NCBI GenBank assembly: GCA_013151635.1
Contig: JAADHV010000064.1
Location: 1 to 49,913 of the forward strand
Source of the DNA: Deltaproteobacteria bacterium
Lineage (GTDB): Bacteria; Desulfobacterota; Desulfobacteria; Desulfobacterales; Desulfobacteraceae
Reading direction: 5' to 3'
DNA length: 49,913 bases
Under the pieces are notes generated by a model. It worked only from the letters and a program-made list of their open reading frames with translations. It was not told where the DNA came from and searched no databases. This document shows positions 22,560 through 26,660 of this stretch, piece after piece. Positions within the stretch are counted from its first letter, which is position 1. Each line of letters starts with the position of its first letter. Made by a program: the position numbers and the translations under genes.

Positions 22560-23588
22560 ATGAAAACCATACGTTTTATTTTAATTTTTACATTAATATT
22601 TATTTCAATTTCACATGCCAAAGACATGCAAAAGTTTCCTTCAATGCTGGCGAATGCAAGAAAAGGGGATGTTGAGGCCATGTGCGACCTTGGTGTTGCC
22701 TATTTTTACGGGAATAATACATTAAAAGATCCGTTCAAGGCCAAATGCTGGATTAAAAAAGCATATGACAAGGGTTCCGTGCGGGCTTTAAAACTCTGGA
22801 AAGACCTGGAATTATGGAGGTACTCGGGAAAATGCGATACATCATTTGATGATGAGGTACTTCCAAAATACGCCGGAGGTGATATTTTTAAAGATCCTGT
22901 CACCGGGATGGAGTTTGTCTTTATATCCGGAGGGTGCTTTAAAATGGGATGTGATGAATTAAAAGGAAAGTGTGATAGAGATGAAACTCCTGCCCACAAG
23001 GTGTGTGTGGACGGGTTCTGGATGGGAAGATATGAAGTTACCCAAAAGTCATGGTATGACATCATGGGCAGTAACCCTTCACGGTTTTCCAGTGATTTAA
23101 GCCGTCCGGTTGAAAATATTTCCTTTGATGATATTCAAAAGTTTATCCGGCGCATTAATTTAAAAACCAGGAATAAATTTTCATTGCCCTCGGAGGCCCA
23201 GTGGGAATATGCCTGCAGGAACGGCGGGCAAAATATTATTTTTCCCTGGGGCAATGAATCCTATCGCCCCGAAGAGAATTGCGGTACCTGCAATTCCGGC
23301 AGTTTCCATGGTGAAACAGCTCCGGTGGGCAGTTTTCCTCCCAATGAACTTGGGATTTATGATATGGGGGGCAATGTCAAAGAATGGTGCAGGGATGTTT
23401 ATCATAAAAACGCCTATGCACAGCATAATAAAAATAACCCGGTTTATGAGGGACATGGATCTTTACGGGTATTAAGGGGGGGATCATTTGTCGATAATAC
23501 TTCAAAGCTTGGATGTACCAGCCGGGATAAGTCCATACCAGGCATGAGAAGTGATTATATCGGTTTCAGACTGGTGCTGGCCCGTTAA
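22560..23588 (+). CDS. Secreted Sel1-repeat plus formylglycine-enzyme-like (SUMF1) protein
   Basis: 342 residues. Residues 1-20 are a signal peptide (ILIFTLIFISISHA). A Sel1-like repeat follows (about 30-75, GDVEAMCDLGVAYFYG). Residues 115-342 are an FGE-sulfatase (PF03781) domain: FVFISGGCFKMGCDE, YEVTQKSWYDIMG, LPSEAQWEYACR, GNVKEWC, RVLRGGSF, IGFRLV. The copper-binding cysteine pair of true formylglycine-generating enzymes, which should follow RGGSF, is not present, so conversion of Cys to formylglycine is unlikely. Such domains also occur in structural and ligand-binding roles. The gene ends 23 bases inside convergent aroB. Confidence 0.8.
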   Translation: MKTIRFILIFTLIFISISHAKDMQKFPSMLANARKGDVEAMCDLGVAYFYGNNTLKDPFKAKCWIKKAYDKGSVRALKLWKDLELWRYSGKCDTSFDDEVLPKYAGGDIFKDPVTGMEFVFISGGCFKMGCDELKGKCDRDETPAHKVCVDGFWMGRYEVTQKSWYDIMGSNPSRFSSDLSRPVENISFDDIQKFIRRINLKTRNKFSLPSEAQWEYACRNGGQNIIFPWGNESYRPEENCGTCNSGSFHGETAPVGSFPPNELGIYDMGGNVKEWCRDVYHKNAYAQHNKNNPVYEGHGSLRVLRGGSFVDNTSKLGCTSRDKSIPGMRSDYIGFRLVLAR

Positions 23589-24612
23589 ATACTGAATTTA
23601 TGAATTTATTTATTTCATTAAAGCTGATTTTTTCAATCCCGGCTTTTCCAATCTGATCAAGGAAAATATAAAAAAGATCGCTGCCTTGCTTTTTTTTGTC
23701 TTTTTCTACCGCGCTGATGATTTCTTCTGCCCTGTAATCAAGGCTTGTCGGAAGGTTAAGATCAGCCAGAAGCGAACTGATCCGTAAGACATCTTGTTTA
23801 TTGATCCTGCCTTTGGCTTGTGAAAACCTGGCTGCTGCTGCCATTCCCATGGAGACAGCCCTTCCGTGACCTGCTTTTTCAATTTTTTCTATGGCATGGC
23901 CAATGGTGTGGCCGAAATTGAGTTTTCTTCTTTCACCGGATTCTTTTTCATCCTGCTGGACCACTTGTGATTTGATTTTCACTGACTCTGCAACAAGTCT
24001 GAAAATGGTATCATAATCGAGATCAAGGGCTTTTTGTTTATTTTTTTCGATAAAACCAAACATGGATGCATCAAAAATCAGCGCATGTTTAACAATCTCG
24101 GCAAGCCCGTTTGAAATTTCTTTTTCAGGAAGTGTGTTTAAAAGGTCAATATCACAAATGACAAACCCTGGCTGGTTAAAGACTCCCACCATGTTTTTAT
24201 AGGAATCCAGATTGACACCGTTTTTCCCGCCGACACTCGCGTCAACCTGGGATAAAAGTGAAGTGGATACAAAACCAAAGTCCACCCCCCTTAAAAAAAC
24301 AGAGGCTGCAAATCCTGTAATATCACAGACAATACCGCCGCCAATTCCCACAATAAAGCTTGTGCGGTCACAGGAATAATGGATAAGTTTTTTTAATATG
24401 GCTTCAACACTTGCAAGTGTCTTTATGCCTTCTCCCGTGTCAATTGTGATAACGGGAACATCAGGGAAATCAGTCTTGTAATATTTTTTTACGTTCTTGT
24501 CCGTGACAATAACAACCTGGGTGGATGGAAGGTATTTTTCCAGGTTTTTAAGACTTTCTCCCACATAAATGGAAGAAAGCCCGTACTCTCCTTTAACTTG
24601 AAAGGTTTCCAT
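23566..24612 (-). CDS. aroB: 3-dehydroquinate synthase
   Basis: 348 residues. It makes 3-dehydroquinate from DAHP, step two of the shikimate pathway. NAD-binding and catalytic segments are present: GGGIVCDITGFAAS, RGVDFGFVSTSLLSQVDASVGGKNGVN, and the zinc-ligand region KLNFGHTIGHAIE. It starts 2 bases after the aroF stop and so shares the attenuator upstream of aroF. Confidence 0.95.
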   Translation of the reverse strand: METFQVKGEYGLSSIYVGESLKNLEKYLPSTQVVIVTDKNVKKYYKTDFPDVPVITIDTGEGIKTLASVEAILKKLIHYSCDRTSFIVGIGGGIVCDITGFAASVFLRGVDFGFVSTSLLSQVDASVGGKNGVNLDSYKNMVGVFNQPGFVICDIDLLNTLPEKEISNGLAEIVKHALIFDASMFGFIEKNKQKALDLDYDTIFRLVAESVKIKSQVVQQDEKESGERRKLNFGHTIGHAIEKIEKAGHGRAVSMGMAAAARFSQAKGRINKQDVLRISSLLADLNLPTSLDYRAEEIISAVEKDKKKQGSDLFYIFLDQIGKAGIEKISFNEINKFINSVFNGPAPV

Positions 24613-24614
24613 GG

Positions 24615-25622
24615 TTATTTCCTGATAATTGCATGGATGGCGTTCATTTTTTCCATGACTTTAAAAAACTGATCCGGGTATAAAGACTGTGCCCCGTCAC
24701 TCATGGCTTCTTCAGGGTTATTGTGAACTTCAATCATAACACCATCTGCCCCTAATGCTGCTGATGCATATGCAAGGGGAATGACCTGGTCCCTGACGCC
24801 TGCAGCATGGCTGGGGTCAACTATGATGGGAAGGTGGCTTTCTTTTTTGGCTGCCGGCACAACAGAAAGATCCAATGTATTCCGGCTGTGTTTTACAAAG
24901 GTTCTGACGCCCCTTTCACAAAGAATGACATTGTTGTTTCCTTTTTCCATTATATATTCAGCCGCCATCAGCCATTCCTGAAGCGTGGCCGACATTCCTC
25001 TTTTTAAAATTACAGGTCTTGTTGATTTCCCGGCGCGTCTCAGAAGACTGAAGTTCTGCATATTCCTGGTACCTATCTGAACAATATCTGCATATTCTTC
25101 AACAAGATTAAAATTTTCAACATCCATGGCTTCGGTTGCAACAGGCATGCCTGTTTCTTCCCGTACCTTTGCTAAGAGTTCAAGGCCTTGTTTCCCAAGG
25201 CCCTGGAAAGAATAAGGGGATGTCCTCGGCTTAAAAGCCCCCCCCCTGAAGATTTTGGCACCGGCATCTTTAACAGACCTTGCAATAGATAGAACCTGGT
25301 TCTGGCTTTCAACAGCACAGGGGCCGGCAATTACAGGCAAACTTCCATTGCCGAAAACAGCTTCACCAACTTTAATGTGGGTATTTTCCTGCTTAAACTC
25401 CCGGCTGACAAGTTTATACGGTTTTGTCACCGGAATAACCTCCTTTACACCATCAAGCCCCAGAAAATGGGCAGCATCAACAGAACCCTTATTGTGCAGG
25501 ATTCCGATGGATACCCTGTCCCCTCCTGGTATGGGGCGGGCGGTGTAACCTCTTTTTTCAATTGCGTTCACAGCAGCTTGTATTTTTTCTTCAATTGTGC
25601 CTTTTTCCATTACGACTAGCAT
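24615..25622 (-). CDS. aroF: DAHP synthase, type I-beta with N-terminal regulatory domain
   Basis: 335 residues. It joins PEP and erythrose 4-phosphate, the first shikimate-pathway step. Residues 1-72 form a ferredoxin-like domain as in Thermotoga-type enzymes, where it binds Tyr/Phe for feedback. The catalytic barrel has IAGPCAVES, RGGAFKPRTSPYSFQG, QIGTRNMQNF and DPSHAAG. The start follows GGAGGAAAACA. Upstream is a Trp leader-peptide attenuator, so Trp would act on transcription while Tyr/Phe could act on the enzyme (inference). Confidence 0.95.
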   Translation of the reverse strand: MLVVMEKGTIEEKIQAAVNAIEKRGYTARPIPGGDRVSIGILHNKGSVDAAHFLGLDGVKEVIPVTKPYKLVSREFKQENTHIKVGEAVFGNGSLPVIAGPCAVESQNQVLSIARSVKDAGAKIFRGGAFKPRTSPYSFQGLGKQGLELLAKVREETGMPVATEAMDVENFNLVEEYADIVQIGTRNMQNFSLLRRAGKSTRPVILKRGMSATLQEWLMAAEYIMEKGNNNVILCERGVRTFVKHSRNTLDLSVVPAAKKESHLPIIVDPSHAAGVRDQVIPLAYASAALGADGVMIEVHNNPEEAMSDGAQSLYPDQFFKVMEKMNAIHAIIRK

Positions 25623-25668
25623 TGTTTTCCTCCGTTTGATTTTGTATCAGTATTCAATCTTTTGAGCA

Positions 25669-25701
25669 ATAAAAAAGGCTGCAAGTTTTTTTTACAGCCT
25701 T
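25669..25701 (-). terminator. Second tandem terminator before aroF
   Basis: On the minus strand AAGGCTG (25701-25695) and CAGCCTT (25681-25675) form a 7-bp stem with an A-rich loop, followed by further T residues. The stem repeats that of the first terminator. It is about 50 bases before the aroF start. Confidence 0.75.
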
Positions 25702-25702
25702 G

Positions 25703-25741
25703 AAATAAAAAAAAGGCTGTAAGTTTGCCGACAGCCTTTTT
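25703..25741 (-). terminator. First terminator of the aroF attenuator
   Basis: On the minus strand AAGGCTGT (25738-25731) and ACAGCCTT (25720-25713) form a perfect 8-bp stem with a 10-base loop, followed by an unbroken T run. The 5' arm can instead pair with a segment of the leader peptide coding region (25779-25787), which would disrupt the terminator. Confidence 0.85.
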
Positions 25742-25763
25742 GTCTTAATGTATTTTCCTGTTT

Positions 25764-25883
25764 TCAGGTTAGACCGCTGCTGCTGGCATTTTTGCGCCAC
25801 CATCGCCAATACCGGGAATCCGCAACAGCATTTCTGCGGGTCTTAAGTTGTTTGATTTTTGTTTCTATGCACAAGAACACCAT
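25764..25883 (-). CDS. Trp-rich leader peptide of the aroF-aroB attenuator
   Basis: 39 codons (ATG at 25883, TGA at 25766-25764). Residues 25-30 read YWRWWR: Tyr25, Trp26, Trp28 and Trp29, three Trp codons in four positions (25797-25808). It lies between a perfect promoter and two terminators, as in trp-type attenuators. Segments for a 1:2 hairpin (25822-25829 with 25776-25783) and an antiterminator (25779-25787 with 25727-25735) are present. The start is uncertain: the ATG is only a few bases after the predicted transcription start and has no Shine-Dalgarno sequence, so it may be leaderless or start further in. A second short frame without Trp codons (25769-25831) overlaps it. Confidence 0.7.
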   Translation of the reverse strand: MVFLCIETKIKQLKTRRNAVADSRYWRWWRKNASSSGLT

Positions 25884-25893
25884 AATGGAGAGT

Positions 25894-25921
25894 ATTATAA
25901 ATAGTTTAATCGCTTTGTCAA
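25894..25921 (-). promoter_or_regulatory. aroF-aroB promoter
   Basis: On the minus strand TTGACA (25921-25916) and TATAAT (25899-25894), both perfect, are 16 bases apart. It is the best sigma-70 promoter in the window, as expected where control happens after initiation. Confidence 0.85.
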
Positions 25922-26012: not shown

Positions 26013-26660
26013 ATGAGAACAAGAGTAGTCATAGCAGATGATCATGCCATTATGCGGGAGGGTTTAAAAAGCCTTCTTGAAAAAAAAGGGGTGGATGTCA
26101 TCGGAATCGCAAAAAATGGCCGGGAAGCCATAGAGCTTGCAATCTCCGCACATCCGGATGTCGTGATGATGGATATTTCAATGCCGGATTTAAATGGTAT
26201 GGAAGCAACCGCCACTATTCGGCAGAAAGTTCCCGATACTAAAGTCATTGCCCTTTCAATGCATTCCAGCAAGCATATCATAGACAAAATGTTTACATCT
26301 GGCGCATCAGGATACATTCTGAAGGAATCAGCATTTGAAGAATTGTATGATGCCATAAAGGAAGTTAACAAAGGTAATTTTTATTTAACCCCTTCCATTG
26401 CCAGGATGTATGTTGATTATGATGGTAATATGGTTAAAGCTCTTGGTGATTTGCCTGTATCCAAAGAAATTTCGAAAAAAGAACGGGAAGTTCTTCAGAT
26501 GGTTGCAGAAGGGGAAAAAACCCGTGACATTGCTGAAAAAATGAGTGTCAGCATCAAGACTGTAGAAAGCCACCGTAGAAATATTATGAAAAAGCTTTGT
26601 ATTTTCAGTATTGCCGGGCTGACAAAATTTGCGATTAAGGAAGGGATTATTTCCCTATAG
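26013..26660 (+). CDS. NarL/FixJ-family response regulator
   Basis: 215 residues. The receiver (1-120) has acidic residues ADDH at 8-11, phospho-acceptor Asp54 (VMMDISMP) and a conserved Lys around 104. A LuxR-type HTH covers about 150-212 (SKKEREVLQMVAEGEKTRDIAEKMSVSIKTVESHRRNIMKKL). It is a DNA-binding activator or repressor with targets unknown. The next gene, 120 bases on, is a hybrid kinase and could be its partner, although that kinase also has its own receiver. Confidence 0.93.
   Translation: MRTRVVIADDHAIMREGLKSLLEKKGVDVIGIAKNGREAIELAISAHPDVVMMDISMPDLNGMEATATIRQKVPDTKVIALSMHSSKHIIDKMFTSGASGYILKESAFEELYDAIKEVNKGNFYLTPSIARMYVDYDGNMVKALGDLPVSKEISKKEREVLQMVAEGEKTRDIAEKMSVSIKTVESHRRNIMKKLCIFSIAGLTKFAIKEGIISL

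Follow-up and report, generated by a model that had tools for sequence, protein, structure and literature searches.

The aroF-aroB pair, which encodes a DAHP synthase and a 3-dehydroquinate synthase, is very probably controlled by ribosome-mediated tryptophan (Trp) attenuation, combined with a likely TrpR-like operator at the upstream promoter (P1) and a bypass from a second, P2-like promoter. This reading draws directly on the anatomy of the locus, its conservation, the enrichment of alternative RNA pairing, a palindrome shared between loci and the co-occurrence of that palindrome with a TrpR-family protein; all regulation at aroF-aroB is what we infer from them. The locus lies in a window of 49,913 nt (the whole stretch of DNA that was analysed), which is contig C113 of a 4.2-Mb genome (G000). 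Its parts are the following:

23566–24612, minus strand: aroB, 3-dehydroquinate synthase (TIGR01357, 329 bits, over cut-off), 2 nt after aroF
24615–25622, minus strand: aroF, type I-beta DAHP synthase with an N-terminal ferredoxin-like domain
25629–25633, minus strand: Shine-Dalgarno sequence of aroF, GGAGG, by direct sequence reading
25641–25669, minus strand: P2-like promoter, TTGCTC (25669–25664), 17-nt spacer, TACAAA (25646–25641)
25671–25701, minus strand: terminator 2, a near-duplicate of terminator 1 (stem region 25701–25675)
25707–25741, minus strand: terminator 1, segment 3 (25741–25731) and segment 4 (25720–25710) forming an 11-bp stem
25776–25787, minus strand: segment 2, able to pair with either segment 1 or segment 3
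25797–25808, minus strand: regulatory codons Trp26, Arg27, Trp28 and Trp29, with Tyr25 just before
25822–25829, minus strand: segment 1, GCTGTTGC, 5' arm of a 1:2 hairpin with weak comparative support
25764–25883, minus strand: leader peptide ORF of 39 codons, reading MVFLCIETKIKQLKTRRNAVADSRYWRWWRKNASSSGLT, its ATG 10 nt past the -10 box
25860–25879, no strand: 20-bp imperfect, operator-like palindrome, TGTTCTTGTGCATAGAAACA, overlapping leader codons 2–8
25894–25921, minus strand: P1 promoter, TTGACA (25921–25916), 16-nt spacer, TATAAT (25899–25894)

The product of aroF has the domains of a type I-beta DAHP synthase, a DAHP_synth_1 domain (PF00793, 271.3 bits) and an N-terminal ferredoxin-like domain (PF18152, 41.8 bits), and its profile scores are 488.7 bits (NF006421) and 396.9 bits (TIGR01361), over cut-off. 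A search with AroF returned eight loci, six of which span the whole protein at 83–93% identity and are labelled Desulfobacula sp. (three), Desulfobacteraceae (two) and Desulfobacterales (one), so that the genome is likely that of a sulfate reducer akin to Desulfobacula. The minus-strand TTGACA/TATAAT promoter described for this locus is indeed present, as TTGACA-16-TATAAT with 12 of 12 consensus positions matched, and most of 28 family leaders have a similar promoter in this position. Divergent from aroF, a LuxR/NarL-type response regulator gene (26013–26660, plus strand; PF00072, PF00196) starts about 90 nt from P1.

Firstly, aroF is preceded by a short ORF with clustered Trp codons. Translation confirmed the previously noted 39-codon frame with Tyr25 followed by Trp26, Trp28 and Trp29, and the W-x-W-W pattern is conserved in most close relatives. 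Regions upstream of aroF were collected across the family (86 genomes searched, 72 with an AroF match) and across the order (121 of 251 genomes with a match; 40 upstream regions from 33 other families, one to three per family, those of L210 and L219 being short stretches). An ORF was counted as carrying a Trp cluster if it began with ATG, had 12–60 codons and contained at least three Trp in six or at least two Trp in four, and the counts were set against 20 rounds of dinucleotide shuffles and against the reverse strand. The family count covers the 51 loci whose AroF match starts at residue 1; not counted are L023 (at a contig start), eight N-terminally short matches (L061, L063–L065, L067–L070), L004–L010 (the same records as L012, L013, L015, L017, L016, L030 and L064), L011 (another phylum, 45% identity) and the paralogs L002 and L003. 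By the three-in-six rule, a cluster was found at 21 of the 51 family loci (shuffle mean 0.1; reverse strand 0 of 51) and at 18 of the 40 loci from other families (shuffle mean 0.05; reverse strand 1); by the two-in-four rule, the numbers rise to 28 of 51 (shuffle mean 2.3; reverse strand 0) and 23 of 40 (shuffle mean 1.6; reverse strand 2). No cluster was found by the latter rule at 23 family and 17 order loci, genera g3 and g8 among them, and some relatives carry aroF without a Trp leader (g3, g8 and a group with a short AroF). Outside the family, the leader peptides look unalike apart from the Trp cluster, which makes the codons the conserved part. According to the earlier note, its proposal would fall if homologous leaders did not keep the Trp codons or the alternative pairing; at about half of the family loci and about half of the sampled loci of other families the Trp codons, the terminator and the pairing of segments 2 and 3 are kept, and the proposal thus passed its own test there.

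A leader that senses several aromatic amino acids, Trp together with Tyr or Phe, is somewhat unlikely. Tyr25 precedes Trp26 here, and Phe, Tyr and Trp codons are mixed in the leaders of L060 and L062 and, in other families of the order, of L203, L204, L216 and L224, the last four of which may read several charged tRNAs. In contrast, the residue before the first Trp varies among close relatives (Y, L, R, F or C) while the Trp codons stay.

Secondly, a terminator lies between the leader ORF and aroF. The terminator followed by T's that had been described is present, with an 11-bp stem and a U tract that extends to 25707; its near-duplicate, terminator 2, which the earlier note does not mention, follows at 25701–25675. 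The two alternative pairings proposed for the locus are also found as described: segment 1 (25829–25822) pairs with segment 2 (25783–25776, GCAGCAGC) over 8 bp with one G-U, and segment 2 (25787–25779) pairs with 25735–25727 over nine positions with one mismatch. The 217-nt leader folds at -61.6 kcal/mol, compared with -48.9 (sd 4.2) for dinucleotide shuffles (z -3.0; 1 of 200 as good). A terminator follows the leader candidate in 28 of 30 family cases and 24 of 27 cases from other families (raw counts with no shuffle baseline), and the two family misses, L041 and L042, both look like spurious ORFs.

The three stems fared differently among relatives. With fixed columns in an alignment of 13 leaders, 94.6% of the terminator-stem cells are paired, two double changes occurring in this stem, and the 2:3 columns are paired in 78.0% as against 74.7% in shuffles (22 of 500 as high), falling to 24–45% when this helix is slid out of register. 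The 1:2 columns, in contrast, are paired in 66.9%, as against 66.7% when shuffled, with covariation not above shuffles in the same 13 leaders. Because the 1:2 helix slid by -3 and +3 still pairs in 62.3 and 59.0%, a register-free duplex test was adopted, in which segment 2 was shuffled 200 times per leader, GTG and TTG starts were also allowed, the second terminator was used at some loci and only candidates with a terminator were reported, a few of which (e.g. L207) may be spurious. By this test, the 2:3 duplex has a mean z of -2.49 in 28 family leaders, -2.16 in 24 leaders of other families and -2.03 in 44 trpE leaders; the corresponding values for the 1:2 duplex are -1.29, -0.48 (no enrichment across the order) and -0.90. 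The comparison thus supports a predicted 2:3 antiterminator that would exclude the terminator, though modestly on fixed columns, and the putative 1:2 hairpin is only weakly supported across relatives. With a footprint of about 15 nt upstream, a ribosome holding Trp26 in its A site would cover just part of segment 1, which the earlier note took to be covered. In what that note had called the 1:2, 2:3, 3:4 logic of trp operons, the 1:2 pairing has the least support. No Rfam family matched within the window at gathering score; at lax E-values only chance-level matches appeared, RF00513 (Trp_leader) among them with 14.9 bits (E 2.3) for a threshold of 41 bits. The locus would work like a trp attenuator, yet it stands outside the Rfam Trp_leader family.

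Leaders, terminators and 2:3 pairing together support a ribosome-mediated Trp attenuator before the DAHP synthase gene and aroB, as had been proposed, and aroF-aroB would be under two tryptophan layers at P1. RNA polymerase starting from P1 would produce a leaderless, or nearly leaderless, mRNA whose first codons are those of the leader peptide. When charged tRNA-Trp is scarce, the ribosome would stall at Trp26, Trp28 or Trp29 and leave segment 2 free; free segment 2 would pair with segment 3, terminator 1 would be blocked and aroF-aroB would be transcribed. When Trp is plentiful, the ribosome would finish the leader with segment 2 occupied, and the terminator would stop transcription, with terminator 2 as a backup of terminator 1. 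As the second layer, a TrpR-like repressor would sit on the palindrome over the transcription start and codons 2–8. The P2-like promoter, past both terminators, would provide Trp-independent basal expression.

Translation of the leader probably starts without a Shine-Dalgarno sequence, on a leaderless or nearly leaderless mRNA. The ATG stands 8–14 nt past the -10 hexamer in 25 of 28 family aroF leaders; since transcripts are expected to start about 7 nt past the -10, the start would fall a few nt before the ATG. An SD-like 4-mer precedes the ATG in a single one of the 28 family aroF leaders, as against 23 of 42 trpE leaders of the same family and 9 of 24 aroF leaders of other families. The ribosome-binding site is thus absent here, as the earlier note had remarked, but this is not the weak point that it was taken for, because the absence is conserved in the family. 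In Sinorhizobium meliloti, the Trp leader ORF trpL likewise starts at the 5' end of its transcript, as excerpts of PMC7298713 describe, but it lies upstream of trpE(G) and, in the same excerpts, is not under transcriptional repression.

Thirdly, leader codons 2–8 overlap an element that had been missed, the 20-bp palindrome TGTTCTTGTGCATAGAAACA, just downstream of the predicted transcription start. Compared with the consensus TGTTTCTATATATAGAAACA, at least 15 of 20 positions match upstream of 36 of 51 family aroF loci, and the site in the window scores 15. A sharper form occurs upstream of trpE, with at least 16 of 20 in 57 of 64 upstream regions (71 of 86 genomes matched; seven matches short of the N-terminus were omitted), a score that 1 of 1920 single-base shuffles reached; the mean half-site symmetry is 8.1 of 10 positions there and 6.7 at aroF. 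In these trpE regions the palindrome lies upstream of the -35, outside any leader, and Trp-cluster leaders occur in 41 of the 64; trpE of the analysed genome has both a Trp leader, MEKNILNNKEKFSWWWQSLLWSMLPLE, and a palindrome at 17 of 20. At aroF of other families the box was not seen (11–14 of 20 in 38 of 40 upstream regions; 16 in L218; 8 in L219, a short stretch).

Allowing at most two mismatches, two-strand matches in the analysed genome occur only at trpE and aroF, and likewise in G053, with one extra one-strand match in each. Forward/reverse counts against a reversed control were 2/3 against 2/1 in G000, 7/6 against 4/4 in G055 and 2/3 against 0/1 in G053; with a looser pattern they were 3/3 against 0/0 (G000, two further places being matched), 5/5 against 1/1 (G055), 2/2 against 1/1 (G020), 1/1 against 0/0 (G067), 2/2 against 0/0 (G060) and 2/2 against 2/2 (G082). 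Counts are not always above the control, so the case rests on where the sites are. Palindromes with one mismatch elsewhere (C87 and C90 of G000, C1 of G060, second sites in G020 and G082, two more in G055) adjoin genes that do not look aromatic by eye. G055 also has a palindrome near the promoter of a TrpB-like gene (NF009057, 694.8 bits). A near-perfect palindrome in the same genome (C1, 61989–62008; L253) precedes a 4Fe-4S protein gene, with an aldehyde-oxidoreductase-like frame nearby when read by eye, and is a possible further member of the regulon.

A 20-bp palindrome upstream of trp genes is what a TrpR-family operator would look like, and a TrpR-like repressor probably binds the one at aroF P1. 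The genome encodes a TrpR-family protein (PF01371, 59.9 bits, above the gathering score of 27), and such a protein was detected in 65 of 86 family genomes. Among the 64 trpE upstream regions, 52 have site and TrpR, 6 have neither, 5 the site only and 1 TrpR only, a co-occurrence with a Fisher p of 4e-5 when genomes are counted as independent despite their relatedness. That a regulator other than the TrpR-like protein binds the palindrome is unlikely. It is true that the protein falls below the cut-off of the NCBIfam TrpR equivalog (TIGR01321, 48.6 bits for 67.25), though this model is closer to it than YerC/YecD (TIGR02531, 31.4 bits for 42.2), that the palindrome does not have the sequence of the TrpR motif which excerpts of PMC9413887 give for gammaproteobacteria, and that five genomes have a trpE site with no TrpR match. 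However, these five are 56–90% complete, protein and sites otherwise co-occur, the sites lie at trpE, aroF and, in G055, the TrpB-like gene, and a length of 20 bp suits the palindromes of the TrpR family as excerpts of PMC9413887 give it. The one genome with TrpR and no trpE site is G013.

It is decidedly unlikely that the conserved 5' block, M-x-F-L-Y-I-E-T, is kept as a peptide or an RNA acting in cis or in trans rather than as a DNA operator. The block at aroF is both transcribed and translated, its left half departs there from a perfect palindrome, as the symmetry values above indicate, and Sinorhizobium has a known Trp leader peptide that acts in trans (excerpts of PMC7298713). Conservation only as peptide or RNA was nevertheless set aside, because the same palindrome occurs upstream of the trpE -35, where it is outside leaders; it is also near the promoter of the TrpB-like gene in G055, and the trpE box is absent in the six genomes that have no TrpR match. 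In addition, genus g8 keeps the box, and P1, at all 12 of its aroF loci (L036–L038, L040–L042, L045, L047, L049–L051 and L053), where the Trp cluster is gone and the terminators seem gone in many; two of them, L050 and L051, have lost the leader start codon as well. Since the box persists there without Trp cluster or start codon, it is not there for the peptide.

Downstream of both terminators lies another element absent from the earlier note, the P2-like promoter, which has an extended -10 TG at 25649–25648. Its conserved form is TTGCYC-N17-TAMAAM with the extended -10 TG, and TTG and TA stand at the same spacing in 49 of 59 loci. At least 20 of 32 positions match the box of the window in 40 of 59 loci, as against 20 of 1770 shuffles, and at least 18 of 32 in 50 of 59, as against 202 of 1770, L052 and L070 looking like chance matches. 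Seven of seven loci without P1 and leader (L061, L063–L065, L067–L069) keep the box at 26–32 of 32. The promoter reading was kept, and an RNA element in the 3' block set aside, because conservation falls in two blocks 17 nt apart with a less conserved spacer between them. P2 would be a basal promoter for aroF. In L016 (C21 of G041), a deletion from just past the P1 -35 to the first terminator removes the -10, the palindrome and the leader; aroF and the P2-like box remain.

P2 could also be the real aroF promoter, with regulation by palindrome and repressor, the leader and terminators being a relic or a constitutive double terminator. The persistence of P1 and box in g8 without a Trp cluster, and of the P2 box even where everything else is lost, would fit this, but many family loci retain the Trp codons, the terminator and the 2:3 pairing, and so do loci of other families, at whose aroF the box was not seen; we regard this alternative as very unlikely.

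The earlier note had also left out the leader of a second DAHP synthase in this genome, which is fused to a prephenate dehydratase with an ACT domain (PF00793, PF00800, PF01842). In the region G000:C70:29500–34600 (L088), a leader reading MNKTKHISIFNFGRFFFFFRSVHPV is Phe-rich; the Phe-rich leader peptide, IFNFGRFFFFFRSVHPV, precedes the ORF at 2226, which is the fused isozyme, and is followed by tandem terminators when read by eye. A Phe-rich leader stands before the fused isozyme in 15 of 15 evaluable genomes (17 loci surveyed; L245 and L246 dropped as too short). With a Trp leader at one and a Phe leader at the other, the two isozymes appear to respond to different tRNAs.

Trp operons are the textbook case of Trp attenuation, and isozyme-specific repression of DAHP synthases is known from E. 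coli. The locus resembles the E. coli and proteobacterial trp leader (RF00513) with TrpR in its clustered Trp codons, its putative 1:2, 2:3 and 3:4 pairings and its terminator and, likely, in a TrpR-family operator at the same promoter. Unlike trp operon leaders, it stands before a DAHP synthase gene and aroB and not before trpEDCBA, it has no Shine-Dalgarno sequence, with its ATG next to the transcription start, and it has a palindrome in the leader codons, tandem terminators and a P2-like promoter. Trp attenuation would act here at the entry to the entire aromatic pathway, and the codons of a leaderless leader, serving also as a repressor site, would link attenuation and the control of initiation through a single sequence. 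With different codon sensors, the two isozymes would allow a direct test of whether attenuation replaces isozyme-specific repression.

Several described systems share parts of this arrangement. The aroR-aroF attenuator of Corynebacterium glutamicum, also ribosome-mediated and upstream of a DAHP synthase gene, has a Phe-Tyr-Phe leader and responds to Phe, not Trp, in an unrelated phylum (PMC11802643, excerpts, citing Neshat et al. 2014). In Shewanella, another bacterial class, RNA motifs are predicted before the DAHP synthase genes aroH (possible transcription termination; Trp-sensitive) and aroF (attenuator, tyr-tRNA), but the excerpts of PMC2659441 describe no Trp leader peptide for aroH. Putative attenuators are listed before aromatic supraoperons in Table 7 of PMC1173090, including one in a sulfate reducer, Desulfovibrio vulgaris; its operon differs (aroA' > aroB' > aroQ-pheA > aroF > tyrA > trp operon, in the naming of that paper), and no Trp leader is described in the excerpts of that source. 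In Geobacteraceae, a short RNA element, Gmet_R0069, is predicted 5' of a Thermotoga-type (type I-beta) DAHP synthase gene and suspected to be a regulator, but the excerpts of PMC2700814 do not call it a Trp attenuator. Gammaproteobacterial DAHP synthase isozymes are, according to excerpts of PMC5343134 and PMC11802643, under TrpR and TyrR, TrpR control being known or predicted for aroH, aroG or aroF-tyrA depending on the lineage; they too are controlled by different aromatic amino acids, but through repressors and allostery, whereas here leaders that differ in their codons and a TrpR-like site of another sequence would apparently be used. Among the open-access matches listed, none has a Trp leader peptide before a DAHP synthase gene (the nearest, in the excerpts of PMC2659441, being the Shewanella aroH motif), a TrpR site in Desulfobacterota, leaders at both DAHP synthase isozymes, or a leaderless Trp leader before a DAHP synthase gene with a palindrome in its codons. 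In the excerpts of the regulon survey PMC5343134, TrpR is absent outside gammaproteobacteria and coverage of Desulfobacterales is not evident; relative to that survey, a TrpR-like regulon in Desulfobacterales would be new.

On the wider scale, we lean towards a reading, held less firmly than that of the locus itself, in which Desulfobacterota split entry into the aromatic pathway between Trp-leader and Phe-leader isozymes, the family adds an operator inside a leaderless leader, and one group has dismantled these controls together, leaving a bare P2. Of 26 genomes of the genus, 12 have no TrpR match. Two of these, G034 (56% complete) and G042 (90%), retain both an aroF of full length and the palindrome at trpE, and TrpR is therefore probably just missing from their assemblies; G045 and G038 have no aroF match at the search threshold. 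The other eight (G031, G033, G037, G039, G048, G050, G051 and G054; 78–97% complete) have an N-terminally short AroF match, which in G054 is cut by the contig end. In the remaining seven, with no TrpR match, P1, palindrome and leader are gone: within 350 nt upstream of their aroF (L061, L063–L065, L067–L069) we found no Trp leader, the box matched no more than 12 of 19 positions and no promoter exceeded 10 of 12. The N-terminal region of AroF is lost in six of them and partly in G037 (L231–L237), and PF18152 is absent from the two short proteins scanned. These genomes being incomplete MAGs, absence of TrpR and controls is not proof of loss. The box is also absent upstream of trpE in G031, G033, G037, G038, G039 and G048, five of which keep the Trp leader before trpE. 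In a tree of the catalytic part, the eight short-AroF rows fall into two groups, with which a single origin may still be compatible. Relatives that lack TrpR, palindrome, leader and N-terminal domain offer a natural comparison. In G033 (C13:4558–6641; L070, L183), a second DAHP synthase gene sits immediately 5' of trpE and follows a Trp leader that, read by eye, has three Trp codons in a row, so that a DAHP synthase has apparently moved into the trp operon.
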